A stretch of 12,126 nucleotides of DNA from Chloroflexota bacterium (GTDB lineage Bacteria; Chloroflexota; Anaerolineae; B4-G1; SLSP01), in contig JAAZNO010000500.1 of the NCBI GenBank assembly GCA_012798275.1, forward strand, positions 1 through 12,126. The letters run 5' to 3'. The notes beneath the pieces were generated by a model. The model saw only the letters and a list, made by a program, of their open reading frames with translations. It did no database searches and was not told the origin of the DNA. Within the stretch, counting starts at the first letter, position 1, and each line of letters starts with the position of its first letter. Of this stretch, positions 1 through 12,126 are shown one piece after another. The translations under genes and the position numbers were made by a program.

Positions 1-1380
1 ACGGTGCTGCGTCTCACGCGCGATCCGTCCTTCGAGGCCCGCCCCAGCTGGTCGCCGGATAGTCAGTGGCTGGCCTACGAGGTGTACGACGGGGAAAATT
101 TCGACATCTATGTGCTGAGCGTTGACGGCGAGCAGCAATATCGGCTGACTAATCACCCCTCCCCCGACTTCTCGCCGGCGTGGTCGCCCGACGGACGCCA
201 CATCGCCTTCACCTCGCTGCGCGACGGCAGCAAGGACATTCACGTCATCTCGCTCGACACGGGCGAAGTCATCAATCTCACCCAATCCCAGGAGCAGCAA
301 GAGGACTATGCCGCCTGGTCACCCGACGGCGCCTTTCTGACCTACTCCGCTGGCACACCGGGCAACGAGGAAATTCTGGTGCTCCCCTTCGACAAAGACG
401 CGATCGCCATGGGCGAGGTACGCCCGATGCTCTTCGGCACCGGCGGCCAGCCGACCTGGTCCCCCGACGGCCAGGCGCTCGCGTTTATCTACCGACGCAA
501 CGAGAAATCCTACCTGGTCGCGGCGAACATCTCCGGCTGGGCGCTGGCACAGGAAGGATACAGCTCCAGCGATTGGATGGCGGTTCCCAGCTGGAGTCAG
601 CACGTCCTTTCCGCCGAGCTCGCGCAGCAGCTGAGCGCGCGCATGGCGCAGCCGGAATCGTCGCTGTATACGGAACTCCTCCTCAACACCGAAACCCGCC
701 CCACAACCTATGAGCTGGTAGGACTCCCCGACGTGAACAACGGCGACACTACGGAAAAGCTCAGCGACCGCGTCAACGATAGTTTCAATGCCCTGCGGCA
801 GCGCGTGAAAGAGGAGACCGGCTGGGATTATCTCAGCATCTTGGGCGATTCCTGGCGCACAATGAACCATACCCCCCGGCCGGGGCAAGGCCGCATCTCA
901 TGGCATGTCTGCGGGCGCGCCATTGACATCAACCAGGGATTCTTGAGTGACGGGCTGATCGAGCTCATTCGCGAGGACATCGGCGGCGTGACCTACTGGC
1001 GGGTCTACATCAAAGCGGCAAAACAGGATGGCAGTCTCGGCGAACCGTTACGGGATCGTCCCTGGGACCTCTCCGCACGCTCCAAGGGCGGGCTGGCCGC
1101 CGTGCAGGGCGGCGAGCTCAAAAGTGAGGTACCGCAGGGCTATTACGTGGACTTTACGACGCTGGCCGCCGACTACGGTTGGGAACGCCGCAACGCACTC
1201 GCCGGTTGGCGCACGTCCTGGTTCGACATCGAATGGTGGCACTTCCAGAAGACGGCCGGGCTGAGCTGGTATCAGTGTATGCTGGAACTCTACGACGAGG
1301 ACGCGATCAGCGCGTCTTACGGGGACTTGCCCTGGTGGACGCGCCGCCCGGAGTGGGAAGTCCAAACGTACCCGTGGTGA
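1..1380 (+). CDS. TolB-like PD40 beta-propeller fused to M15 zinc peptidase domain (5' partial)
   Basis: The reading frame is open at the window edge, so the N-terminus and any signal peptide lie upstream; residues are counted from base 4. Residues 1-165 carry four PD40/WD40-like repeats with the core W-S-P-D (WSPD at about 16, 60, 105 and 152), as in TolB-type propellers. The C-terminal part (about 255-458) has the M15 peptidase signature: S299-x-H301-x2-G304-x-A306-x-D308 (H-x6-D), then E410-x-x-H413 in EWWHF. In VanX/VanY enzymes these are the zinc ligands (H, D, H) and catalytic Glu. The gap between the two motifs (about 100 residues) is larger than in VanX, which suggests an insert. I infer an exported D-Ala-D-Ala peptidase or related amidase acting on peptidoglycan, with the propeller as a binding platform. 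It stands alone on this strand, ending 8 bases before the convergent glycosyltransferase gene. Domain calls are firm; the substrate is not. Confidence 0.8.
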   Translation, partial: TVLRLTRDPSFEARPSWSPDSQWLAYEVYDGENFDIYVLSVDGEQQYRLTNHPSPDFSPAWSPDGRHIAFTSLRDGSKDIHVISLDTGEVINLTQSQEQQEDYAAWSPDGAFLTYSAGTPGNEEILVLPFDKDAIAMGEVRPMLFGTGGQPTWSPDGQALAFIYRRNEKSYLVAANISGWALAQEGYSSSDWMAVPSWSQHVLSAELAQQLSARMAQPESSLYTELLLNTETRPTTYELVGLPDVNNGDTTEKLSDRVNDSFNALRQRVKEETGWDYLSILGDSWRTMNHTPRPGQGRISWHVCGRAIDINQGFLSDGLIELIREDIGGVTYWRVYIKAAKQDGSLGEPLRDRPWDLSARSKGGLAAVQGGELKSEVPQGYYVDFTTLAADYGWERRNALAGWRTSWFDIEWWHFQKTAGLSWYQCMLELYDEDAISASYGDLPWWTRRPEWEVQTYPW

Positions 1381-2561: not shown

Positions 2562-4106
2562 TCAGAGGGACGCGGTAGGCAACGTCGCCAGGAAATCGCC
2601 ATGCAGCGCCCGGCGCAGCGCTTCGCGGTCGTCCCAGGGATACTCGATCTCCCCGAAGCACATGCTCTGTTCGTGCCCCTTGCCGCACGCCATGACAAGG
2701 TCACCGGGACGCGCCAACGAGACGGCGTGAAGAAGGGCCTTGCCGCGATCCGGGACGCGGTAGAAATCACGTCCCTCCACCTTACCGGCAGCTTCGAGGG
2801 CGCGGGCTGTCTCCGCCATAATCGCGTCGAGCGCTTCGGTGCGGGGGTCCTCCGCCGTGATGAGGGTGATGTCAGCCCCAGCAGCCGCGACCTCGCCCAT
2901 CAGCCGCCGCTTTTCCCGGTCACGGAGGCCGGCACAGCCGAAGACCACGATAACTCTGCCGCCGGGAGCGATCAGCCCGCGCGCCGTCTCCAGGGCGCGC
3001 AAGAGCGCGTTTGGCGTGTGGGCAAAATCCACGATCGCCGTAAAAGCCTGTCCCTCGTCCATACGCTCCATGCGCCCCGGCACGCCGTTGAAGGAAGCGA
3101 GGCCCGCCGCTACCTGCTCGGGGGCAATGCCCAACGCCAGCCCCGTCGTCGCCGCCGCGAGGAGGTTGCTCACGTTGAACGCTCCCACCAGCGGGGAGGA
3201 CACCGGCACCTGCCCCCAGGGACTCAACACGGTGAACCGCAGTCCCGAAGGCGCCGAGGCGATGTCCACGGCGACGACGTCCGCCTCCTCGCCATCAAGG
3301 CCATAGACTACCTGCCAATCCGCTGGCATCTGACGCAGGTAAGGGTAAGAGCCGACGTCATCGGCGTTGAGGACGGAGATCTTGGGCGTGTCGGGCTTGC
3401 GATAGGAAGGGTACAGGCCGCGGAACAGCGTCGCCTTAGCCTCACGGTAAGCCTCCCACGTGCCGTGATAATCCAGATGCTCGTGGGTGATGTTGGTGAC
3501 CACGGCCACGTCGAAATCGCAGCCGGCCAGGCGATGCTGCGCCAGGCCGTGAGACGTGGCCTCGACGACGGCGTGCGTGGCGCCATCGGCGACCATCTCC
3601 GCGAGATAGGCCTGAATCTCGTCGGCAGGGGGCGTGGTGGTGTGCAGGCCCGTGTCCAGGCTACGTGAGCCGATCTGAGCATTCACGGTGCTGATCATGC
3701 CCGCGTTGTGTCCAGCCGCGCGAAGGATGGCGTAAATCAGGTTGGTCGTCGTCGTCTTGCCGTCCGTGCCGGTGACGCCGATCAGGGTGAGCTTGCGGGA
3801 CGGGAAATTCAACAACGCCGCGCACAGCCACCCGAACGCCTCCGCGGCATTCTCCACCAGGGCGTAGGGCGTCCCTGCCGGCAAGGACACTTCGGCGAGA
3901 GCGCGCTCGCCCACCACTGCGGCGGCGCCCGCCGCCAAAGCCTGCGGGATGAAGTCGTGCCCATCGCGGGTGAGGCCCGAAATGGCCACGAAAATGCTAC
4001 CAGGCGTCACCTGCCGGGAATCGGCAACAACGCTTACCACGTCAGCGTCAGCCTCCGTGCGCCCCCGAACGCCGGGAATCATCGAAAGCAACTCGCTAAA
4101 CCGCAT
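2562..4106 (-). CDS. murE: UDP-MurNAc-tripeptide synthetase (MurE), variant substrate motif
   Basis: A 514-residue Mur ligase, the normal size for MurE. It joins the third, usually dibasic, amino acid to UDP-MurNAc-L-Ala-D-Glu using ATP, in the cytoplasm. Domain 1 is at about 1-100. The ATP loop is GTDGKTTTT (113-121), followed by the TTTP motif (157-160), EATSHGL (182-188) and THEHLDYHGT (207-216). EAKATLF holds the Lys expected to be carbamylated (K224). Domain 3 has FNGVPGRMER (339-348), VDFAHTPNAL (359-368) and CGKGHEQ (474-480). Oddities: the amino-acid selecting motif, DNPR in diaminopimelate enzymes, reads EDPRTE (419-424), and the usual FGCGGDRD-type stretch reads FGCAGLRDREKRR. The third residue may therefore not be meso-diaminopimelate; L-ornithine is a candidate. 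The ATG at 4106 is chosen over an earlier in-frame start because MRFSELL matches family N-termini and AGGGGA lies 5 bases upstream. No other dcw-cluster gene is adjacent. Confidence 0.93.
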   Translation of the reverse strand: MRFSELLSMIPGVRGRTEADADVVSVVADSRQVTPGSIFVAISGLTRDGHDFIPQALAAGAAAVVGERALAEVSLPAGTPYALVENAAEAFGWLCAALLNFPSRKLTLIGVTGTDGKTTTTNLIYAILRAAGHNAGMISTVNAQIGSRSLDTGLHTTTPPADEIQAYLAEMVADGATHAVVEATSHGLAQHRLAGCDFDVAVVTNITHEHLDYHGTWEAYREAKATLFRGLYPSYRKPDTPKISVLNADDVGSYPYLRQMPADWQVVYGLDGEEADVVAVDIASAPSGLRFTVLSPWGQVPVSSPLVGAFNVSNLLAAATTGLALGIAPEQVAAGLASFNGVPGRMERMDEGQAFTAIVDFAHTPNALLRALETARGLIAPGGRVIVVFGCAGLRDREKRRLMGEVAAAGADITLITAEDPRTEALDAIMAETARALEAAGKVEGRDFYRVPDRGKALLHAVSLARPGDLVMACGKGHEQSMCFGEIEYPWDDREALRRALHGDFLATLPTASL

Positions 4107-4111
4107 GGCCG

Positions 4112-4117
4112 TCCCCT
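4112..4117 (-). promoter_or_regulatory. Shine-Dalgarno site deciding the murE start
   Basis: AGGGGA on the - strand, 5 bases before the ATG at 4106. It supports this start over the in-frame codon at 4172, which would add 22 residues unlike any MurE N-terminus. Confidence 0.7.
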
Positions 4118-4162
4118 GAACATAGAATGAGCTACAGAAAAACACATGGCTGCTTGTGGCGC

Positions 4163-4185
4163 AAAAGGGCAAACTAAAGTTTGTC
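4163..4185 (-). terminator. palindrome with short T-run downstream of nuoN
   Basis: A stem of seven pairs (4168-4174 with 4179-4185, including one G.T wobble read on the + strand) closes a four-base loop; the perfect core is CAAAC / GTTTG. Read on the - strand, downstream of nuoN, it is followed by CCCTTTT, like a weak intrinsic terminator, but there the wobble becomes an A/C mismatch. It may instead be a dispersed palindromic repeat. It sits in the 96-base gap between nuoN and murE, where I find no convincing murE promoter. Confidence 0.35.
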
Positions 4186-4200
4186 GCCGCATTTCTGCCA

Positions 4201-4228
4201 ATCTAAAATCTAAAATCCAAAGTCCAAA
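4201..4228 (-). repeat. heptamer array at the nuoN 3' end, inside the reading frame
   Basis: There are four 7-base units on the + strand: ATCTAAA, ATCTAAA, ATCCAAA, GTCCAAA. The nuoN stop codon (TAG, complement of 4203-4205) and its last seven codons fall within the array. Confidence 0.85.
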
Positions 4229-5684
4229 GCCCGCTGGGCGGAAAGACACCCAAGAGGAGGACCAGCGCGACGCTGATCCCCAGCGCTGCGGCCAGCCACG
4301 GCGAGATTCGCAGCGGTTCGTCCGAGTGCGCCTGCTGGAAGTACATCGCGTGGATAATTTTCCAGTAATAGGCGATCGAGACGACGTTGCTGAGCACCGC
4401 GATCACGGTGAGCCAGGGGAACCCCGCCTCCAACGCTCCCGCGAACAGCCAGAACTTACCGAGGAAGCCGGCGGTCAGCGGCATCCCGATCAAAGTCAGC
4501 AGACTCACCAACACGCTGAAGGCCACCCAGGGGGCGCGCTGATGTAGCCCAGCAAAAGCGGAGATCTTGGTCGAGAGGGGAGTCGAATTCCCGGTCACCG
4601 CAATGATCGCGGCAAAGATGCCCAGAGAGGCCACTCCGTACGCCACCAGGTAGAACAGCAGCGCTGCCACGCCCGTCGAGGATTGCACCACGACGCCAAT
4701 GAGGAGGTAGCCGACCTGCGCTACACCCGAATACGCCAGAAGCCGTTTGAGATCCGTCTGCCACAGGGCGCCGAGGCTGCCCACGATCATGGTAATCGAG
4801 GCCAGAGCGGCCAGCAACGCCTGCCAATCGCCGCCGTGCGCGGATGTAGCGACAGGCAACGCCGTGAGCGTGAAGCGCACGAGCGTCGCAAGACCCGCCA
4901 GCTTGGGAATGACCGCGATGAAGGCGGCAGAAGCGGTCGGCGCTCCCTGGTAGGCGTCGGGCGCCCACTGATGGAATGGCGCCGCCGCGAGCTTCATCGC
5001 AAAACCGGCGCCCGCCATGATCAACGCCGGCAGGATCACGTATTCGAGCTCCGCAACGTGCAGCGGCAGCGCCGAGGACGTGAGGCCGCGATCCAGAAAA
5101 GCGTGCAGCCCGGCCAGGTCGGTCGTCCCGGTGGCGCCATAAAGCCAGGAGAAGCCGAACAACATCACCGCAGAGAGGGTCGCGCTGTAAAGGAAGTACT
5201 TCAACGCGGCCTCAGAGGCGAGCGGATTTACCCGCTCGTAAGCCGTCATGATGTAGGCAATCACGCCGAGAAAATCTAACGCCAGCAGGATGAGCACCAG
5301 GTCAGAAGCCGCCCCCAGAATCGAGAGCACCAGCGCCGCGACGAGCAACAGCGCGCCATAAAGCGCCGTGGATTGCGAACGGCAGCAGTCTTCCGACTCG
5401 GCCAGGAGGGCAACCAGGGCAATGAAGAAGAAGCCCAGCAGTTTGACCACCACGGTGAAGGTATCCGGCGTAAGTCCTGCCAGCAGGAGCGCCCCCGGCT
5501 CAAGCGGGGGGAAGACGAGCGCCGCGACCGCCGCCAGCAGCAATCCCCCCAAAGTAATGCCGAGGCAGTAGCGCCCGTCGCGTGGGTGGAAAATCAGATC
5601 TCCCGTCAACAGCAGCAAGATGGTGCAGAGCAACACCAGCTCGGAGGCGAAGGTTCGCAATGTGAGGGCCGAATCCAGCAGCAT
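4203..5684 (-). CDS. nuoN: NADH-quinone oxidoreductase subunit N (NuoN)
   Basis: A 493-residue, very hydrophobic Mrp-antiporter-like subunit of complex I with about 14 membrane helices. It provides one of the three proton channels of the membrane arm. Typical motifs: SEAALKYFLYSATLSAVMLFG (157-177) and MKLAAAPFHQWAPDAYQGAP (230-249), with K231 on the broken helix. PKLAGL carries K261, WQTDLKRLLAYSGVAQVGYL is at 308-327, and TAGFLGKFWLF carries K410. The usual TM5 Glu (E133 in E. coli) appears to be Asp here (D137 in LALDFLG). The C-terminus WTLDFRF is encoded by a heptamer repeat. The ATG at 5684 lies 10 bases after the nuoM stop; AAAGGGG just before it overlaps the nuoM end, which suggests tight translational coupling. 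It is the last gene of the nuo cluster. Confidence 0.95.
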   Translation of the reverse strand: MLLDSALTLRTFASELVLLCTILLLLTGDLIFHPRDGRYCLGITLGGLLLAAVAALVFPPLEPGALLLAGLTPDTFTVVVKLLGFFFIALVALLAESEDCCRSQSTALYGALLLVAALVLSILGAASDLVLILLALDFLGVIAYIMTAYERVNPLASEAALKYFLYSATLSAVMLFGFSWLYGATGTTDLAGLHAFLDRGLTSSALPLHVAELEYVILPALIMAGAGFAMKLAAAPFHQWAPDAYQGAPTASAAFIAVIPKLAGLATLVRFTLTALPVATSAHGGDWQALLAALASITMIVGSLGALWQTDLKRLLAYSGVAQVGYLLIGVVVQSSTGVAALLFYLVAYGVASLGIFAAIIAVTGNSTPLSTKISAFAGLHQRAPWVAFSVLVSLLTLIGMPLTAGFLGKFWLFAGALEAGFPWLTVIAVLSNVVSIAYYWKIIHAMYFQQAHSDEPLRISPWLAAALGISVALVLLLGVFPPSGLWTLDFRF

Positions 5685-5694
5685 GAAGCCCCTT

Positions 5695-7209
5695 TCAGAA
5701 CAACGTGCGCAGCAACGTCTGCACGGCGGCGTCGAAGGTCGCCAGCAGGGGCGCGGGGTACAATCCCAGCACCACGGTCAGCACGACCAGCGGCGCTACG
5801 GTGAGCTGCTCCCACCACGTCAGATCGGGGAGATGCGCCCACCGGGTGGTGTCGAGCGAACCGAGGAACAGGTGCTGCACCACCTTCCACAGGATGTAGG
5901 CCGCCGTGAAGACGATCCCCAGGACGCCGATATAAGCCGCGAGGGGCAGCAATTGCGCCGTCCCACGGAAGACGAAGAATTCACTCCAGAAGCCCGCCAG
6001 CCCCGGCAGGCCCAGCGAGGCCAGCGCCAGCACCAGCATCAGGCCGTAATAGACCGGCATCTGTCCCGCCAACCCGCCAAAAGCGCGCAGGTCACGGGTG
6101 TGGGAGCGTTCGTAGAGCATCCCGACGAGGAAGAACATCCCGCCGGTGACGATCCCGTGCGAGAAAAGTTGCCAGACCGCGCCGTTGAGCGCCGACGCCG
6201 CAGCCGCCTGGGTAGCGGTTCCGCCGACCGCTGTGGCGCACAATCCCAGGGTGAAGTAGCCCATGTGTGCGACAGAGGAATAGGCGATCAGTCGTTTGAG
6301 GTCCCATTGCGCCAGGCACACCAACGCGCCGTAAACGATGCTGAACAGCGCTAACACCGGCAAGATGGGGACATCCACCACGTAGTAGCGGAACATCTGC
6401 GGGAACAGCGGCAATCCAATCCGCAACATGCCGTAAGCGCCGAGCTTGAGCAGCACGCCCGCCAGCATCACGCTTCCGGCCGTCGGCGCCTCGGTGTGAG
6501 CATCGGGGAGCCAGGTATGCAGCGGGAAAATCGGGACTTTGATGGCAAACGCCAGCCACAGACCCCAGAAAGCCAGGTTCGCCCAGCGCAGATCGCGGGC
6601 GAAGGGACGCAAACGCGCCAGCTCGACGATGTCGAACGTGCCGGTGTTGAAATAAATGGCCAGAATCGCCAGGAGCGCGAACACGCTGCCGGCGAGGGTG
6701 TAGATGAAGAACTTGATTGCCGCATAGTCGCGGCGCTTTCCGCCCCAAATGCCGATGATGAGGAACATCGGGACGAGGCCAATCTCCCAGAAAACGTAAA
6801 ACAGCACCAGATCCAGCGCCACGAAGACGCCGATCAGCCCGGTTTCCAGCAGCAAGAACAGGAGATAGTATTCCTTGACCCGTTCCTCGACGGTGTGAGC
6901 GGAATAGAAAAGCGCCAGCGTCATCAACAAGGCCGTCAGCCAAATCAACGGCGCGCTGAGGCCGTCCGCGCCGACGGAATACCAGATGTCAAACGCGGGA
7001 ATCCAGGAATAGCGCTCCGTCAGCTGCAGGGATCCCGCCCCCAATTGCTCTACACGAATCCACAAGAGCGTCGCCAGCACCAGGCTGAACACGGCAAAGG
7101 CCACGCCCACACGCCGAATCGTGCGCACGTCCTCACGGGGAATCACGAGAACCAGCAGCGCCCCCAACAAAGGCGTCACCAGGATGGCACTCAGAATTGG
7201 AAATTGCAT
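5695..7209 (-). CDS. nuoM: NADH-quinone oxidoreductase subunit M (NuoM)
   Basis: A 504-residue integral membrane subunit, the usual length for NuoM, forming a second antiporter-like proton channel. Key residues are present: E142 in FYVFWEIGLVPMFLIIG (E. coli E144), K224 in AIKVPIFPLHTWLPDAHTEA (E. coli K234), K255 in VLLKLGAYG, and E410 in FWSEFF (E. coli E407). QWDLKRLIAYSSVAHMGY is at 301-318. A cytoplasmic loop has the standard IWGGKRRDYAAIKFF form. The ATG at 7209 is preceded by TAGAGG at 7 bases. It lies 54 bases downstream of nuoL and 10 bases upstream of nuoN, in the standard L-M-N order. Nothing in it suggests loss of function. Confidence 0.97.
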   Translation of the reverse strand: MQFPILSAILVTPLLGALLVLVIPREDVRTIRRVGVAFAVFSLVLATLLWIRVEQLGAGSLQLTERYSWIPAFDIWYSVGADGLSAPLIWLTALLMTLALFYSAHTVEERVKEYYLLFLLLETGLIGVFVALDLVLFYVFWEIGLVPMFLIIGIWGGKRRDYAAIKFFIYTLAGSVFALLAILAIYFNTGTFDIVELARLRPFARDLRWANLAFWGLWLAFAIKVPIFPLHTWLPDAHTEAPTAGSVMLAGVLLKLGAYGMLRIGLPLFPQMFRYYVVDVPILPVLALFSIVYGALVCLAQWDLKRLIAYSSVAHMGYFTLGLCATAVGGTATQAAAASALNGAVWQLFSHGIVTGGMFFLVGMLYERSHTRDLRAFGGLAGQMPVYYGLMLVLALASLGLPGLAGFWSEFFVFRGTAQLLPLAAYIGVLGIVFTAAYILWKVVQHLFLGSLDTTRWAHLPDLTWWEQLTVAPLVVLTVVLGLYPAPLLATFDAAVQTLLRTLF

Positions 7210-7263
7210 AGACTAGCCTCTACATGAAACAAAATGATGTCCTCTTCTCGCGGCGCCCGCTCG

Positions 7264-9465
7264 TCACAGGAAAAAGGCCACGATCAGGATGATGACGGTG
7301 AAAAAAGCCAAACTCAGGTAGTCCTGCACGGCGCCCGTCTGCAAGGCGGTCACAAATTTGCCCAGGCGCGTCCACAGCCAGGCGACGGGACCTACCGGCG
7401 CGTCGGGCACTTCCGGTTCCACGGAGCCGGTGGCCCACGGCCCCAACTGTCCAAACCAGCCTATCACATTCACCAGGGGATCCACCAGATGCAGGTCGAG
7501 CCAGTTGAAGAAGCGCCCCAGGCCGACCGAGATACCCCCCCACATATTCACCAGCGTATCCAGGATCTTCTCGTCGAAATACGCCGCCGCGCCGCTCAAC
7601 GCGCGCACCCCGGCCGCCACCCCGCGCACCGCGCCATCGGGAACGGCAGCGTCGAAGCGTGCCGAGAACGCAGCCAGCGCCTGCGTCGCCCAGACGACGG
7701 TGTGCTGATACAGCCCATCAAAGTAGAAGCCCTGCTGCAGGGCACGGTAAAGCCAGCCCAGGTGCAGGCGTCGCATCGCAGCCGCCAGAGGCTCCAACGC
7801 GCCGGCCGCGAGCGGACGCCAGCCGTAGACCAGCCATCCCAGCCCCAGGCCGAGCAGCCCAGCGCCAACGCCCAGCGCCAGCGGCTGCCAGTCGGCGGAA
7901 ACCGGCGCCGATGCGGAAGAAGCTCCGACGAACTCGTGGAACCAGTTGGGGATGAGGCCCCCCAACACGGGGAAATGCTCGGGAATCCCCACCCATCCCA
8001 GCGCCACCGCGAAGGCCGCCAGGATGAGCAGAGGAGTGGTCATGGAACGCTCGCTTTCCTGCGCGTGCGCCGCCGCCGCAGAACGCGGCGTCCCCAGGAA
8101 CACCAGGCTCAGTTGCCGGGCGACGTAGAAAGCGGTCAACAGCGCCGCCGCCGCCAGAACCCAGAAGAGGGCCTGGTCTTGAGCGTAAACCTGGGCGAGG
8201 ATCTCGTCCTTGGACCAGAATCCCGCCGTCAACAGCGGGAATCCCGCCAGCGAAAGCCCTCCCAGGAGAAAGGCCACAAAAGTACGCGGCATGACGCGGC
8301 CCAGGCCCCCCATGGCCAGCAAATCGTTGGGGTCGAACTCGCCGGCGCCGCCGCCGTGCTGATGGCCGTGTTCCATCGCGTGGATGACCGACCCGGCGCT
8401 GAGAAAGAGCAGCGCCTTGAAGAAGGCATGGGTCAACAAATGGAAGAACCCCGCCACGTAGGCGCCCAGTCCCAGGGCCGCGACCATGTAGCCGAGCTGG
8501 CTCATCGTCGAGAAGGCGAGCACGCGCTTGATGTCGTTCTGCCCCAGCGCCACGAGCGCCCCAAACAACGCCGTGAAAGCACCGATGTACGCCACGGGCA
8601 ACACCGGCAATCCCGCTGCCGTCAGCAGGGGAAACATCCGCACCAGCAGGAAGACGCCAGCGGAGACCATCGTCGCCGCATGGATGAGCGCCGACACGGG
8701 GGTAGGCCCGGCCATGGCGTCGGGGAGCCAGGTGTGCAGGGGGAACTGCGCGCTCTTCCCCACAGTCCCGCCGAAGAGCAGCAGGGCGATCACCAACGCA
8801 GGCGATACCGGCAGGCCCAGGTAGCCCGGCTGCGCCAGCTGCGCGAGCGTCTCCGCGGTGAACAGGTCACGGTACGCCAGAGAGCCGACGTTCGCGTAGA
8901 GGACGACCAGTCCCAGGAAGAAGAACAAATCGCCGACCTTCGTCACCAGGAACGCCTTCAGTCCCGCCGCGACCGCCGAGGGACGTTCGTACCAGAAGCC
9001 AATCAGCAGGTAGGAGCACAGGCCCATCAGCTCCCAGCAGATGAAAAACGCCAGCAGATTGTCGAGGAGCACCACTCCCAGCATGGCGGAGGCGAAGAGG
9101 GAGATGTAGGCAAAAAAACGTCCGTAGCGCGGGTCGCCGCGCATGTACCCCGTGCTGTAGATGAAGATCAGCAGGCACAGCAACGGCACCATGAAAAGCA
9201 TCACCAGCGCCGGCGGATCGAGGGCCAGCCCCAGGGACACCGTCTCACCGTTGTTGATGAGCCAGCGCCAGGAGTCCGCGGCCGGCGTCCCCCCGGCTCC
9301 CGTCACCGCGAGCCAGAAGAGGAGCTGCGCCAGGACCAGGGCGACGGCAATCCCACCGATCGCCAGGCGGTGACTGAGCTGCGCGCGGCGCTGTGTGAAC
9401 AACAGGATGCCAGCAAACGCCAGCAAGGGGAAAGCGGGGATCAACCAGGCCAGGTTCCAAACCAT
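7264..9465 (-). CDS. nuoL: NADH-quinone oxidoreductase subunit L (NuoL), long form
   Basis: 733 residues, against about 613 in E. coli. It is the distal antiporter-like subunit and carries the long lateral helix. Key residues are intact: E145 in CWELMGLCSYLLIGFW, K170 and K175 in GLKAFLVTKVGD, K237 in TVGKSAQFPLHTWLPDAM, LGQNDIKRVLAFSTMSQLGY (307-326), and H345 and K350 in LTHAFFKALLFL. A Gly/His-rich loop (366-378) follows SVIHAMEH. Between the lateral-helix region and the last membrane segment (about 716-733) is an extension with a motif (F/L)D-x4-D-x2-V repeated at residues 604, 630 and 656, exactly 26 apart, and a weaker copy at 582. The ATG at 9465 has AAGGGG 7 bases upstream and lies 16 bases after the nuoK stop. 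Confidence 0.97.
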   Translation of the reverse strand: MVWNLAWLIPAFPLLAFAGILLFTQRRAQLSHRLAIGGIAVALVLAQLLFWLAVTGAGGTPAADSWRWLINNGETVSLGLALDPPALVMLFMVPLLCLLIFIYSTGYMRGDPRYGRFFAYISLFASAMLGVVLLDNLLAFFICWELMGLCSYLLIGFWYERPSAVAAGLKAFLVTKVGDLFFFLGLVVLYANVGSLAYRDLFTAETLAQLAQPGYLGLPVSPALVIALLLFGGTVGKSAQFPLHTWLPDAMAGPTPVSALIHAATMVSAGVFLLVRMFPLLTAAGLPVLPVAYIGAFTALFGALVALGQNDIKRVLAFSTMSQLGYMVAALGLGAYVAGFFHLLTHAFFKALLFLSAGSVIHAMEHGHQHGGGAGEFDPNDLLAMGGLGRVMPRTFVAFLLGGLSLAGFPLLTAGFWSKDEILAQVYAQDQALFWVLAAAALLTAFYVARQLSLVFLGTPRSAAAAHAQESERSMTTPLLILAAFAVALGWVGIPEHFPVLGGLIPNWFHEFVGASSASAPVSADWQPLALGVGAGLLGLGLGWLVYGWRPLAAGALEPLAAAMRRLHLGWLYRALQQGFYFDGLYQHTVVWATQALAAFSARFDAAVPDGAVRGVAAGVRALSGAAAYFDEKILDTLVNMWGGISVGLGRFFNWLDLHLVDPLVNVIGWFGQLGPWATGSVEPEVPDAPVGPVAWLWTRLGKFVTALQTGAVQDYLSLAFFTVIILIVAFFL

Positions 9466-9481
9466 CAGCGCGCCCCTTCGC

Positions 9482-9790
9482 TCACCCTTTCAGGGTATCA
9501 ATTTCATCCACGGCGACCGTTTGGCGCGTGCGCCAGACCGCAATCATGATGGCAAGCCCCAACGCCGTTTCCGCCGCCGCGATGACATACACGAAAAGCG
9601 CGAAAACGCGCCCCACCACCTGCCCTTCCTCAAGGTAGCGCGAGAAAGCAATCAGGTTGATGTTGACCGCATTGAGGAGCAGCTCCAGGGACATCAGGAG
9701 CATCACCAGATTGCGACGTGCGAGAAGGCCGTACAGGCCGATGGAAAACAGCGCCGCCGCCAAAATCAAGTACCAGCTCAAAGGGACCAT
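9482..9790 (-). CDS. nuoK: NADH-quinone oxidoreductase subunit K (NuoK)
   Basis: 102 residues with three membrane helices, the normal size for this membrane-arm subunit of the E-channel region. The two buried acidic residues are present: E36 in MSLELLLNAVNINLIAF and E74 in YVIAAAETALGLAI (E. coli E36 and E72). The C-terminal tail (about 86-102, DEIDTLKG end) is polar and cytoplasmic. The start codon lies one base after the nuoJ stop, so translation is probably coupled to nuoJ, with the purine-rich site inside the nuoJ 3' end. Confidence 0.97.
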   Translation of the reverse strand: MVPLSWYLILAAALFSIGLYGLLARRNLVMLLMSLELLLNAVNINLIAFSRYLEEGQVVGRVFALFVYVIAAAETALGLAIMIAVWRTRQTVAVDEIDTLKG

Positions 9791-9791
9791 T

Positions 9792-10295
9792 TCACCGCTC
9801 CCGGGCGATGTACAACGCGCCCAATAGCACCACGAACAAGAGCAAGGAGGCGAGCTCGAAGGGGACGGCGTACCCCGCGCGCGAGACGAGCACCTGTCCC
9901 AGCACCGCCAGATCGTTCTGCGGCGCCGGGACGAGGGGCTCCGAGGGCCATGGCACCTGCAGGATCAACCACGTCAGCCCACCAAAGACGCTGGCAGCCA
10001 CAACAGCGGCGCCATAGGTACTGCGGGCGGGACGGGGACGGTCTCCCATGAAGCCACGGGTGACCATGATCGCCAGCACTGCCAACACCGAGACGCCGCC
10101 GACGTAGATGAAGAGCTGCATCCCCGCCATGAAGGAGACGCCGAGCAGCACGTACAGCGCCGCCACCCCCACAAAGACGGCGATCATCAGCAAAATCGCG
10201 TGGAAAATATGGCGAGCGAGTACCATCGCCAGCGCCGCTGCCACCGTCAGCGCCGCGATTACCAGAAAAGCGATTTGTCCAAACCCCAATGTCAT
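9792..10295 (-). CDS. nuoJ: NADH-quinone oxidoreductase subunit J (NuoJ)
   Basis: 167 residues with five predicted membrane helices. The conserved TM3 segment reads FMAGMQLFIYVGGVSVLAVL (57-76), matching the family's A-x-Q-x-x-x-Y-x-G-A-x-x-V-L pattern with Gly replacing Ala in YVGA; the pi-bulge of this helix takes part in coupling in known structures. The C-terminal PFELASLLLFVVLLGALY (near 145-162) is also typical. The ATG at 10295 has GAGG only 4 bases upstream, a rather short spacing. In most nuo operons nuoI precedes nuoJ; here the preceding gene is nuoH, 93 bases away. Confidence 0.96.
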   Translation of the reverse strand: MTLGFGQIAFLVIAALTVAAALAMVLARHIFHAILLMIAVFVGVAALYVLLGVSFMAGMQLFIYVGGVSVLAVLAIMVTRGFMGDRPRPARSTYGAAVVAASVFGGLTWLILQVPWPSEPLVPAPQNDLAVLGQVLVSRAGYAVPFELASLLLFVVLLGALYIARER

Positions 10296-10388
10296 AGCGC
10301 CTCAATCCTGCACGTTGCCATTACTGACGGTGAAGATTATCTACCCCACCCGGCGCCGGCTGATCTCCGCCCCGCGTTGCCCTATTCC
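10296..10388 (-). other. nuoH-nuoJ gap where nuoI is normally found
   Basis: The gap is 93 bases. It holds no reading frame with CxxCxxC motifs, so the 4Fe-4S protein NuoI is absent. It contains the ten-base palindrome CCGGCGCCGG (10350-10359), a two-unit heptamer repeat at the nuoH end, and the nuoJ ribosome site near 10300. I see no clear promoter or terminator. Confidence 0.6.
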
Positions 10389-10393
10389 CTATT
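10380..10393 (-). repeat. heptamer pair at the nuoH stop
   Basis: CCCTATT occurs twice in tandem on the + strand (10380-10386 and 10387-10393). On the - strand the nuoH stop codon TAG (complement of 10389-10391) lies inside the unit nearest the gene. Confidence 0.6.
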
Positions 10394-11516
10394 CAAGAAA
10401 GGGCTCGAAACGTTGCGCGTCCCGCCGACGCTTTGCGCGACGGTCCACGAGTCTGAGGATGCCCCATGTGACGATCCCCACGCCCAGATTTGCCAGCAGC
10501 AGCCAGGGCGCGCGCGCGGCGAGCGTCGTCGCGCCGAGATCGAAGGCCAGCCGGTTCACCCAGGCAATCACGATCAACATCGCCAATGCCAGCGGCGTCA
10601 ACAATTTCCAGTTGAAGTTGAGGATATGATCAATGCGCAGGCGCGGCATCGCTCCCCAGAACAGCATCAGCACCAAAAACACGAGGAAGCCCTTCAGCAC
10701 CAGCCATACCGGCCCCAATGCGGGGACCTGCTCGACCCAGGGACCGCGCCAGCCGCCCAGGAACAGCGTGGCAAAGATCAGCGAGGCAGAGAAGTTGTTG
10801 ATGAATTCCGCCAGGTAAAAGGCGCCAAACATCATGCCGCTGTACTCGGTGAAGTAGCCGGCGACGATCTCCGCGTCCGCCTCCGCCTGCTCGAAGGGCA
10901 AGCGTCCCACTTCCGCCGTCATCGCCAGGAAATAGATCAACGCCGGAATCGGCAAGACCAGCGCGAAGGGCAGCTGCTGCGCGAGGACGAGGCGCTGCAG
11001 CGAGAGGGATCCCGTGAGCATGATGGGGAGCAACAACGACAGGAACTGCGGGATTTCGTAGCTCACCATTTGCGCCACGGCGCGAAAGGTGCCCAACGAG
11101 GCATATTTGTTGCGCGAACTCCATCCCGCCATGATCATGGAGAAGAGTGTAAACGGCGTGAGCACCACGACGTAGAAGATGCCGATGTCAGGGTCCATTC
11201 CCTGCAAAGTCGGGCCGAAGGGGATCACCAGCCACACGAGCAGCGCCGCCGCCACGACCACCGCCGGCGCCGCCAGGAAGACTACGCGATCCGCGCCCTC
11301 AGGGATGATCAGCTCCTTGGTAAGGATCTTGACCGCATCGGCGAGCGTCTGGAAGATCGCGTACGGACCGGCCCACGAACCGGAGCTATTGGGGCCAAGC
11401 CGATCCTGGATCCGTGCGATGACCTTGCGCGCCACCCAGATGAGGATCAGCGCCGACGCGAAAGGGATGATGAGCAGAATCAGACTGTTCAGGATGTAAC
11501 GCAGATAGATTTCCAT
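10389..11516 (-). CDS. nuoH: NADH-quinone oxidoreductase subunit H (NuoH)
   Basis: 375 residues with about eight to nine membrane helices. NuoH forms the floor of the quinone cavity and connects the peripheral and membrane arms. Recognisable motifs: RKVIARIQDRLGPN (30-43), LADAVKILTKELIIP (58-72), GWSSRNKYASLGTFRAVAQM (131-150) with SYEIP, AEVGRLPFEQAEADAEIVAG (201-220) plus YFTEYSGMMF, and WGAMPRLRIDHILNFNWK (287-304). Departures from the family: GPNRVGPFG is replaced by GPNSSGSWAGPY, about two residues longer; the NR-x-PFD stretch is GRLPFE; and one Glu of EAEXE is Asp. The basic tail (358-370) is somewhat long. The ATG at 11516 is preferred to an in-frame TTG at 11525, which lies in a heptamer repeat. 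There is no good Shine-Dalgarno site. It follows nuoA directly, without nuoBCD. Confidence 0.95.
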   Translation of the reverse strand: MEIYLRYILNSLILLIIPFASALILIWVARKVIARIQDRLGPNSSGSWAGPYAIFQTLADAVKILTKELIIPEGADRVVFLAAPAVVVAAALLVWLVIPFGPTLQGMDPDIGIFYVVVLTPFTLFSMIMAGWSSRNKYASLGTFRAVAQMVSYEIPQFLSLLLPIMLTGSLSLQRLVLAQQLPFALVLPIPALIYFLAMTAEVGRLPFEQAEADAEIVAGYFTEYSGMMFGAFYLAEFINNFSASLIFATLFLGGWRGPWVEQVPALGPVWLVLKGFLVFLVLMLFWGAMPRLRIDHILNFNWKLLTPLALAMLIVIAWVNRLAFDLGATTLAARAPWLLLANLGVGIVTWGILRLVDRRAKRRRDAQRFEPFLE

Positions 11517-11520
11517 GGCG

Positions 11521-11548
11521 GTCAAGCGTCAAGAGTCAAGAGTCAAGA
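11521..11548 (-). repeat. heptamer array GTCAAGA just upstream of nuoH
   Basis: There are four units: GTCAAGC then GTCAAGA three times. The array ends 4 bases from the nuoH ATG, so it occupies the ribosome-binding region and leaves no purine-rich site. On the - strand each unit reads TTGAC, like a -35 box, but no -10 box is placed to match. Confidence 0.88.
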
Positions 11549-11560
11549 GCACCTTACCAA

Positions 11561-11578
11561 CTGGTTCCCAGTAACCAG
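11561..11578 (-). other. small hairpin in the nuoA-nuoH gap
   Basis: A perfect 6-base stem CTGGTT / AACCAG with a 6-base loop, between the nuoA stop and the heptamer array. There is no T-run. It could stabilise an mRNA end or be chance. The whole gap (11517-11589) has no reading frame; nuoB, nuoC and nuoD, usually here, are absent. Confidence 0.3.
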
Positions 11579-11589
11579 GCCCGGCGCCT

Positions 11590-11946
11590 TCACATCCAGC
11601 GAAGCCAGCCCTTCTTCCAGACGTACACCAGGCCAAAAGTCAGCAGCAACAGGAACAGCGTCGCCTCGATGACCGCGTACAGGGGCAGAAAGGCGTAAGC
11701 CGCCGCCCAGGGGAGCAACAACACCGATTCCACGCCGAAGACAACATACGCTAGCGCATAAAGGTAATACTGCGGTTTGAACTCGACCCATGCCTTGCCA
11801 AAAGTGTGGAGGCCGCTCTCATAACTCTCGCGCTTGCGGGGATTGGGCTTCTTGGGTCCCAGAATCCACGCCAACAACAAGGGGGCCAGCGCAAATACCG
11901 CTGCCAGCAGAAAGAAAATTGCGATGAAAGCATATTGCTCGGACAT
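11590..11946 (-). CDS. nuoA: NADH-quinone oxidoreductase subunit A (NuoA)
   Basis: 118 residues with three membrane helices, the usual NuoA size and layout. It packs against NuoH and NuoJ at the joint between the two arms of complex I. Helix 1 is at about 6-29, followed by the NPRKRESYESG loop (35-45) that matches NP-x-K-x-x-x-YECG with Ser instead of Cys. Helix 2 includes YYLYALAYVVFGVESVLLLP (60-79), where the family FD-x-E motif reads FG-x-E (G71, E73), so one conserved acid is missing. PWA (79-81) follows. The start MSEQYAF at 11946 is chosen because the residues encoded upstream of it come from promoter and repeat DNA. There is no Shine-Dalgarno site, consistent with a leaderless message. 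It appears to be the first gene of the nuo transcript. Confidence 0.94.
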   Translation of the reverse strand: MSEQYAFIAIFFLLAAVFALAPLLLAWILGPKKPNPRKRESYESGLHTFGKAWVEFKPQYYLYALAYVVFGVESVLLLPWAAAYAFLPLYAVIEATLFLLLLTFGLVYVWKKGWLRWM

Positions 11947-11953
11947 GAGGCAG

Positions 11954-11982
11954 ATTATAGAGCTGATTACAGGGAACGGCAA
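11954..11982 (-). promoter_or_regulatory. sigma70-type promoter of the nuo cluster
   Basis: On the - strand: -35 box TTGCCG (11977-11982, four of six consensus bases), a 17-base spacer, and a perfect -10 box TATAAT (11954-11959). Transcription would start near 11947, at or next to the nuoA ATG (11944-11946), giving a leaderless or almost leaderless mRNA. The nuoA start has no ribosome-binding site, which fits. Confidence 0.65.
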
Positions 11983-11985
11983 GGT

Positions 11986-12020
11986 CTGGGGATGGAATCC
12001 CCAGCCTGACACAGGCAGAC
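11986..12020. repeat. 35-base double-hairpin repeat, copy 1
   Basis: The first half is CTGGGGAT-GGA-ATCCCCAG (8-base perfect stem, 3-base loop, 11986-12004). The second half is GCCTG-ACA-CAGGC (5-base stem, 3-base loop, 12004-12016), then AGAC. It is identical over all 35 bases to copy 2. It stops 3 bases from the -35 box of the nuo promoter, so it could act as an operator or simply be a dispersed palindromic element. Confidence 0.85.
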
Positions 12021-12091
12021 CCGGCATTCATTCCGGAACGGGAACCCAAACCAGGAATTCCTCTGGCGGCCGGGGCAGGCGCGGAGCGCGG
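12021..12091. other. spacer between the two 35-base repeats
   Basis: The spacer is 71 bases with no gene. It holds two smaller perfect palindromes, TTCCGGAA (12031-12038) and AGGAATTCCT (12053-12062), then a GC-rich run. The density of dyad symmetry suggests that repeats and spacer belong to one larger palindromic element. Confidence 0.5.
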
Positions 12092-12126
12092 CTGGGGATG
12101 GAATCCCCAGCCTGACACAGGCAGAC
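12092..12126. repeat. 35-base double-hairpin repeat, copy 2 (at window edge)
   Basis: An exact copy of the unit at 11986-12020, starting 106 bases further on. The window ends with its last base, so it may continue or be followed by more copies. Confidence 0.85.

Follow-up and report, generated by a model that had tools for sequence, protein, structure and literature searches.

What does a complex I pump work with when all seven of its membrane subunits, and not one subunit of its peripheral arm, are encoded together? This question is raised by the nuoA-H-J-K-L-M-N block on a 12,126-bp stretch of DNA (JAAZNO010000500.1), which is the entire contig C649 of an Anaerolineae metagenome-assembled genome (MAG; 724 contigs totalling 3.06 Mb, with a completeness of 89%) and which we call the window. 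We propose, at a probability of about 0.8, that these seven genes form the operon for the membrane arm (P-module) of an 11-subunit complex I, one without an NADH module and with its genes divided between two loci in Anaerolineae. The gene content, the two-locus layout in relatives, the co-occurrence of the two blocks and the intact key sequence features are shown directly. Throughout, G000 stands for the source MAG and other G numbers for relative genomes, C numbers for contigs and L numbers for loci; the genus sample consists of the source genome and four congeners.

The membrane-arm genes

As the first-pass annotation of this DNA had described, the window carries nuoA-H-J-K-L-M-N and lacks B, C, D, E, F, G and I. 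The open reading frame (ORF) list and a profile scan (Pfam and NCBIfam) of ten window-tiling ORFs among the 51 listed place the seven genes, all complete, on the minus strand from 11946 to 4203, with intergenic gaps of 10, 54, 16, 1, 93 and 64 bp from the nuoN side to the nuoA side:

4203..5684, minus strand: nuoN, 493 aa; TIGR01770 E 9e-96, 321.7 bits, just below the cut-off of 332.6
5695..7209, minus strand: nuoM, 504 aa, single copy; TIGR01972 E 7e-166, 552.8 bits against a cut-off of 263.8
7264..9465, minus strand: nuoL, 733 aa; NF005141 E 1e-177 and TIGR01974, both above cut-off
9482..9790, minus strand: nuoK, 102 aa; PF00420 E 1.2e-29; NF004322 E 7e-40, above cut-off
9792..10295, minus strand: nuoJ, 167 aa; PF00499 E 1.1e-26; NF005168 E 4e-28, below the curated cut-off
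10389..11525, minus strand: nuoH, 378 aa; PF00146 E 3.3e-98; NF004741 E 9e-88, below the curated cut-off
11590..11946, minus strand: nuoA; PF00507 E 4.5e-30; NF005839 E 9e-30, below the curated cut-off

Pfam models identify all seven membrane subunits above their cut-offs; at the curated NCBIfam cut-offs M, L and K pass and N, H, J and A fall below. The nuoA start, an ATG at 11946, was picked by conservation with relatives, the open frame continuing to 12027 with its extra part inside a repeat at the contig end. No peripheral-arm subunit was found among the ten ORFs scanned, the other three of which are TolB-like, GT4 and MurE, and the Pfam scan revealed no PF00346 protein in the window, so that the large subunit with two CxxC motifs of a group 4 membrane-bound NiFe hydrogenase is missing there.

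Judged by their alignments, the membrane subunits seem to be intact. NuoH can be aligned with Thermus Nqo8 and with NdhA, including along the quinone-site loop of Nqo8, a role that we take the aligned loop to share, and NuoL, NuoM and NuoN each match solved chains for the greater part of their sequence (NuoN those of NuoN/NdhB). NuoL is about 100 aa longer than the NuoL of the five 14-gene operons compared. Residue 137 of NuoN is Asp, in contrast to the Glu of the two NdhB-type solved chains compared; seven of the eight aligned sequences, the window included, have this Asp, and L082 has Glu.

A survey for conserved blocks, which the annotation had suggested, found the A-H-J-K-L-M-N order in all four congeners (L056, L065, L057 and L058), indicating that the arrangement is neither chance nor local misassembly. 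L056 (JAGPHL010000017.1) is a near-twin contig whose NuoH is 98% identical to that of the window; at L058 (G004) nuoA (181-601) matches in two pieces that lie in different frames.

The quinone-reducing and NADH modules

The soluble arm had been suggested to be either encoded elsewhere or replaced by another electron-input module. In all four congeners a separate contig carries a fused NuoBCD, encoded by an open frame of 811-861 aa, with nuoI as the very next gene; one of the fusions served as query and the others are 88-97% identical to it. The first half of the suggestion is thus borne out in the congeners, whereas replacement of the quinone-reducing (Q) module by another input module was rejected. 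The genes are sorted by module, with separate loci for the pump and for the quinone-reducing part, as had been supposed. This is a real, conserved complex I that is complete in relatives once the second locus is counted.

The order sample comprises 40 genomes, the source and 39 relatives, and 24 of them carry NuoA. The ten Q-module loci tested in this sample all read B-C-D-I, and nuoA and nuoH were undetected on the stretch examined. A true NuoBC(D) is present in 18 of the 24 genomes with NuoA as compared to one of the 16 without (Fisher p 1.8e-5, uncorrected for relatedness; G021 was scored positive on NuoB and NuoC alone). In NuoB the N2 cysteines, CC, C and C, are kept, as read on a congener protein. 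The genus NuoD aligns over its full length with NF008974, a NuoD model of 366 residues; compared with Thermus Nqo4, one of its loops lacks about 24 residues. A CxxC pair is absent from all six true NuoD frames tested, four of which contain HPSTHG. Short PF00346 proteins of relatives were also considered as NuoD and rejected; all ten tested carry the CGIC...CIAC pair of NiFe hydrogenases and were taken as group 4 hydrogenases.

For the NADH module, matches to PF01512 (NuoF-like) occur in 33 of the 40 genomes. Both such matches of G000 and both of G001 lie inside a NiFe-hydrogenase cluster that reads NuoF-like, NuoE-like, NuoF-like, NuoG-N-like and NiFe small subunit, with the NiFe large subunit in addition in G001; a similar NuoF-like set with a NiFe large subunit stands at G002:C39, and the NuoF-like genes of G003 stand with a gene for the alpha subunit of formate dehydrogenase (850 bits to TIGR01591, above cut-off). 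The soluble hydrogenase clusters are found at G000:C626 (L137) and G001:C295 (L138), and the formate dehydrogenase-type set at L154. That a complex I NuoEFG is encoded elsewhere was accordingly rejected for the loci opened, which belong to NiFe hydrogenase (G000, G001 and G002:C39) or formate dehydrogenase (G003). As only E, F and G are missing, the complex is of the ordinary 11-subunit type in composition, with a split operon.

For the source genome we infer a second locus like that of its congeners. NuoA, H, J, K, L, M and N would then assemble with a Q module made of the NuoBCD fusion and NuoI, electrons would enter at NuoI, most likely from reduced ferredoxin, and pass by way of the N2 cluster of NuoB to quinone at the NuoB/D/H site, and quinone reduction would drive ion pumping by NuoL, NuoM and NuoN.

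Several observations weigh against this proposal. The genome search that the annotation had recommended, which in relatives found B-C-D-I without nuoA or nuoH, gave no match to nuoBCD in the source MAG at E 1e-15, the sole weaker match (E 4e-5) being a piece in a hydrogenase small subunit; this gap is probably due to incompleteness. NuoBC(D) is missing in six of the 24 NuoA genomes, where about 2.3 such cases are expected from the stated completeness, and a few true absences of the Q module are possible. The NuoF-like loci G002:C208 and G004:C109 lie outside the examined set, and in the NuoH tree described below the split rows G071 and G103 adjoin the 14-gene clade with 93/94 support.

The cluster upstream of nuoA as a possible electron donor

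Right past the contig end, out of sight of the first-pass annotation, which had named nuoB, C, D or I there as the find that would overturn it, relatives have polyferredoxin and HdrB beyond nuoA. At L056 the strand of nuoA carries, upstream of it, genes for a MoaD-like protein, an aldehyde:ferredoxin oxidoreductase (AOR), a 4Fe-4S protein, an HdrA-FlpD fusion, HdrC, HdrB and a polyferredoxin. In the source genome HdrA-HdrC-HdrB-polyferredoxin lie on contig C429, and the polyferredoxin gene ends 18 bp from the contig end, which fits a contig break between polyferredoxin and nuoA. Two features stand at the corresponding end of the window; the repeat among them probably explains why the assembly breaks off ahead of the polyferredoxin gene:

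11986..12126, no strand: contig-end repeat; 35 bp of 11986-12020 recur at 12092-12126
11954..11982, minus strand: sigma-70-like promoter, TTGCCG - 17 - TATAAT; consensus match only

The cluster could be a dedicated electron-input module, in which HdrABC would split the electrons of aldehyde oxidation and the low-potential branch would run through the FwdF-like polyferredoxin to NuoI. We consider this unlikely. In its favour, the polyferredoxin gene stands directly before nuoA in six of the 11 genomes that have both (contiguously in G001, G002, G003, G005, G007 and G023), and contigs break between the two in two more (G000 and G004); yet the two genes are not neighbours in the other three (G015, G016 and G027). 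HdrB has ten cysteines aligned with those of methanogen HdrB, and the AOR has four cysteines and a Glu/His pair aligned with Pyrococcus AOR, residues whose roles we presume to be the same here. The polyferredoxin is closest to FwdF, which is found in the Hdr complex of PDB 7bkb, and a variant of the cluster in G045, with an NAD module in place of HdrB, shares a contig with nuoE-F-G-A-B-C.

Against this stands the lack of co-occurrence, as polyferredoxin is found in 11 of the 24 genomes with NuoA and 11 of the 16 without (Fisher p 0.2), and in five genomes without NuoA it is followed directly by murE. Moreover, terminator-like hairpins between polyferredoxin and nuoA (16 bp with T8 at L056, 17 bp at L065) and a promoter-like site of its own at nuoA separate the two in the genus. 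This site, TTGCCG or TTGTCC - 17 - TATAAT, stops 7 nt short of the nuoA start codon in the window and at L056 (9551-9579), L057 (9575-9603) and L065 (10676-10704). Pointing the other way, the scan flagged only short stems in L057, a coding-strand terminator in none of L061, L062 and L079, and a coding-strand promoter in neither L061 nor L062. A TATAAT ending 7 nt before the ATG would make the nuoA mRNA leaderless in the genus, and in several other relatives a -10-like box lies farther upstream of nuoA.

One operon made of the AOR cluster and nuo was considered on the basis of adjacency, and this idea is weakened by the terminators, the nuoA promoter-like site and the lack of co-occurrence. Judged by these signals, the cluster is probably a transcription unit of its own in the same energy-metabolism neighbourhood. 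It is quite improbable, in our estimate, that AOR-HdrACB-polyferredoxin has replaced the NADH module, a bifurcating, aldehyde-driven Hdr docking on NuoI by means of the FwdF-like polyferredoxin; if true, such docking would give the 11-subunit complex I a genetically linked electron donor. As a donor the cluster is a weak, unproven candidate.

The cluster resembles the MvhAGD-HdrABC and Hdr-FwdF complexes of methanogens in its HdrA-FlpD, in the two cysteine-rich motifs of HdrB and in the FwdF-like polyferredoxin, but it is bacterial and has AOR and ferredoxin in the hydrogenase's place. A class II benzoyl-CoA reductase was considered for the AOR and rejected, as the match to Pyrococcus AOR in the PDB scores 377 bits compared to 173 for BamB, the latter over an N-terminal stretch only. 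We found no published neighbourhood of AOR-Hdr-polyferredoxin and complex I in a search that left most of the subscription literature outside.

The arrangement AOR - ferredoxin - HdrA - HdrC - [X] - polyferredoxin recurs in the class (L056:1059-9042; L136; L079:544-8697; L140-L144) with a varying partner X, which is HdrB in the window's family, FlpD with an NAD-binding flavoprotein in G045 and NiFe hydrogenase subunits in G096; the cluster of G118 looks like that of G045, from the listing. At E 1e-60 polyferredoxin is found in 13 of 199 Anaerolineae genomes, our class sample. Where it leads directly to murE without NuoA (G013, G018, G020, G022 and G035; L140-L142, L145 and L147), the nuo block looks as if excised from, or inserted at, the same place. 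Genes of a V-type ATPase follow nuoN in G015 (L073:8621-16522) and polyferredoxin in G011 and G010 (L143:9106-10191 and L144:12700-13794; subunit C by Pfam), which suggests an ancestral energy island.

On the other side of the block the window carries the following genes, with a GT4 glycosyltransferase gene beyond murE:

2562..4172, minus strand: murE; TIGR01085 above cut-off; 30 bp downstream of nuoN
1..1380, plus strand: TolB-like propeller protein, cut by the contig start

murE is not part of complex I and is a conserved neighbour of the nuo block (L056, L057, L065, L058 and L082). The TolB-like gene faces the murE, GT4 and nuo genes, and the C-terminal 250-280 or so residues of its product have no Pfam match at E 1e-3.

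Possible loss or duplication of the complex, and its distribution

That the species has lost the Q module, leaving the membrane arm as an orphan pump or as a partner of the AOR-Hdr cluster alone, we regard as very unlikely. Failure to find nuoBCD in the source MAG, and likewise in the NuoA-bearing G005, G015, G027, G030 and G034, would agree with such a loss; however, the sister genome G001 (NuoH 98% identical) and the three other congeners have nuoBCD-nuoI, the source MAG is incomplete and lies in 724 contigs, and the coupling site of complex I requires NuoB and NuoD. Equally remote is the idea that the genome also holds an unassembled canonical 14-gene complex I beside that of the window, for both types do occur together in near-complete members of other families of the class, but 23 of the 24 NuoA genomes of the order have a single NuoA match (the second match of G005 is below the family cut-off), nuoA leads to nuoH in 22 of the 24 and to nuoB in none (G005 and G039 are cut by contig ends), and hydrogenase clusters account for the NuoF-like genes of both G000 and G001.

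The nuoA counts of the order also answer the first-pass annotation in another respect, as a close relative with the standard order had been named as a sign of assembly error and none of the 22 readable loci is of that kind. By NuoA counts and nuoA neighbours in the 24 NuoA genomes, the order showed no 14-gene set. NuoA is present in 169 of the 199 genomes of the class sample, and among the 30 best-scoring nuoA loci, a survey biased to high-scoring NuoA, 12 lead to nuoH, 16 to nuoB and two could not be assigned. Class loci beyond that survey were chosen by hand and are not a random sample: all five near-complete genomes picked (G048, G065, G071, G146 and G164) carry a 14-gene operon and a separate A-H-J-K-L-M-(M)-N block, the latter with two nuoM-like genes in L215, L219, L222 and L224 and one in L217. 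In G166 and G129 the nuoA-B of the other set is immediately preceded by a B-C-D-I block.

In a NuoL tree, built without four short split rows of low coverage, the 14-gene type forms one clade (five rows, 100/100) apart from the 16 rows of the split type and the window order. The 14-gene rows are likewise one clade in a NuoH tree (six rows, 100/99), the window lying on the same side as seven of the nine split rows. Taken together, the trees group the window with the split type.

The arrangement had been regarded as unusual, a view that does not hold. It is widespread in class Anaerolineae and already in print, and although real it is largely ordinary: PMC7117926, citing Chadwick 2018, describes in its accessible text separate nuoBCDI and fused nuoCD in Chloroflexi. 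As depicted in the available passages, the split '2M' complex I of Chloroflexi, Anaerolineae included, likewise has its membrane-arm block apart from nuoBCDI and a fused nuoCD, but it has two nuoM where the genus of the window has one, and here B is fused to CD. Within the window order, family f2 (L075 and L077) does match the '2M' complex with two nuoM, and the genus, L073 and L082 have one, so that a single nuoM was rejected as an order-wide mark. The single nuoM together with the BCD fusion sets the genus apart from the known split complex, and absence of a second, 14-gene set seems to mark the order.

Other known systems differ more clearly in layout. The membrane subunits are homologous to those of the canonical 14-gene nuo operon, from which the window's complex differs in lacking E, F and G, in having its Q module elsewhere and in standing apart in the trees. 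The 11-subunit complex I encoded in one operon likewise has no NuoEFG, and the excerpts available on it leave its donor open with ferredoxin suggested; there a single nuoABCDHIJKLMN operon is found, whereas the genes are split by module here. Unlike this module split, the two operons of Sulfurospirillum, in the part of the description at hand, are nuoGHIJKLMN and nuoABCDEF. A Chloroflexi MAG with NuoL, M and N but without the connecting D, C, I and B, as given in the accessible part of PMC3971608, is a different case.

In some Anaerolineae a full complex I set coexists with a second one that is split by module, and the order of the window seems to retain only the split one. According to the available text of PMC11238625, it is an open question what donates electrons directly to the 11-subunit complex I, and for the split complex I the donor is the one remaining testable point. 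A genus in which only the split complex I is seen offers a clear-cut setting in which to ask where its electrons come from.

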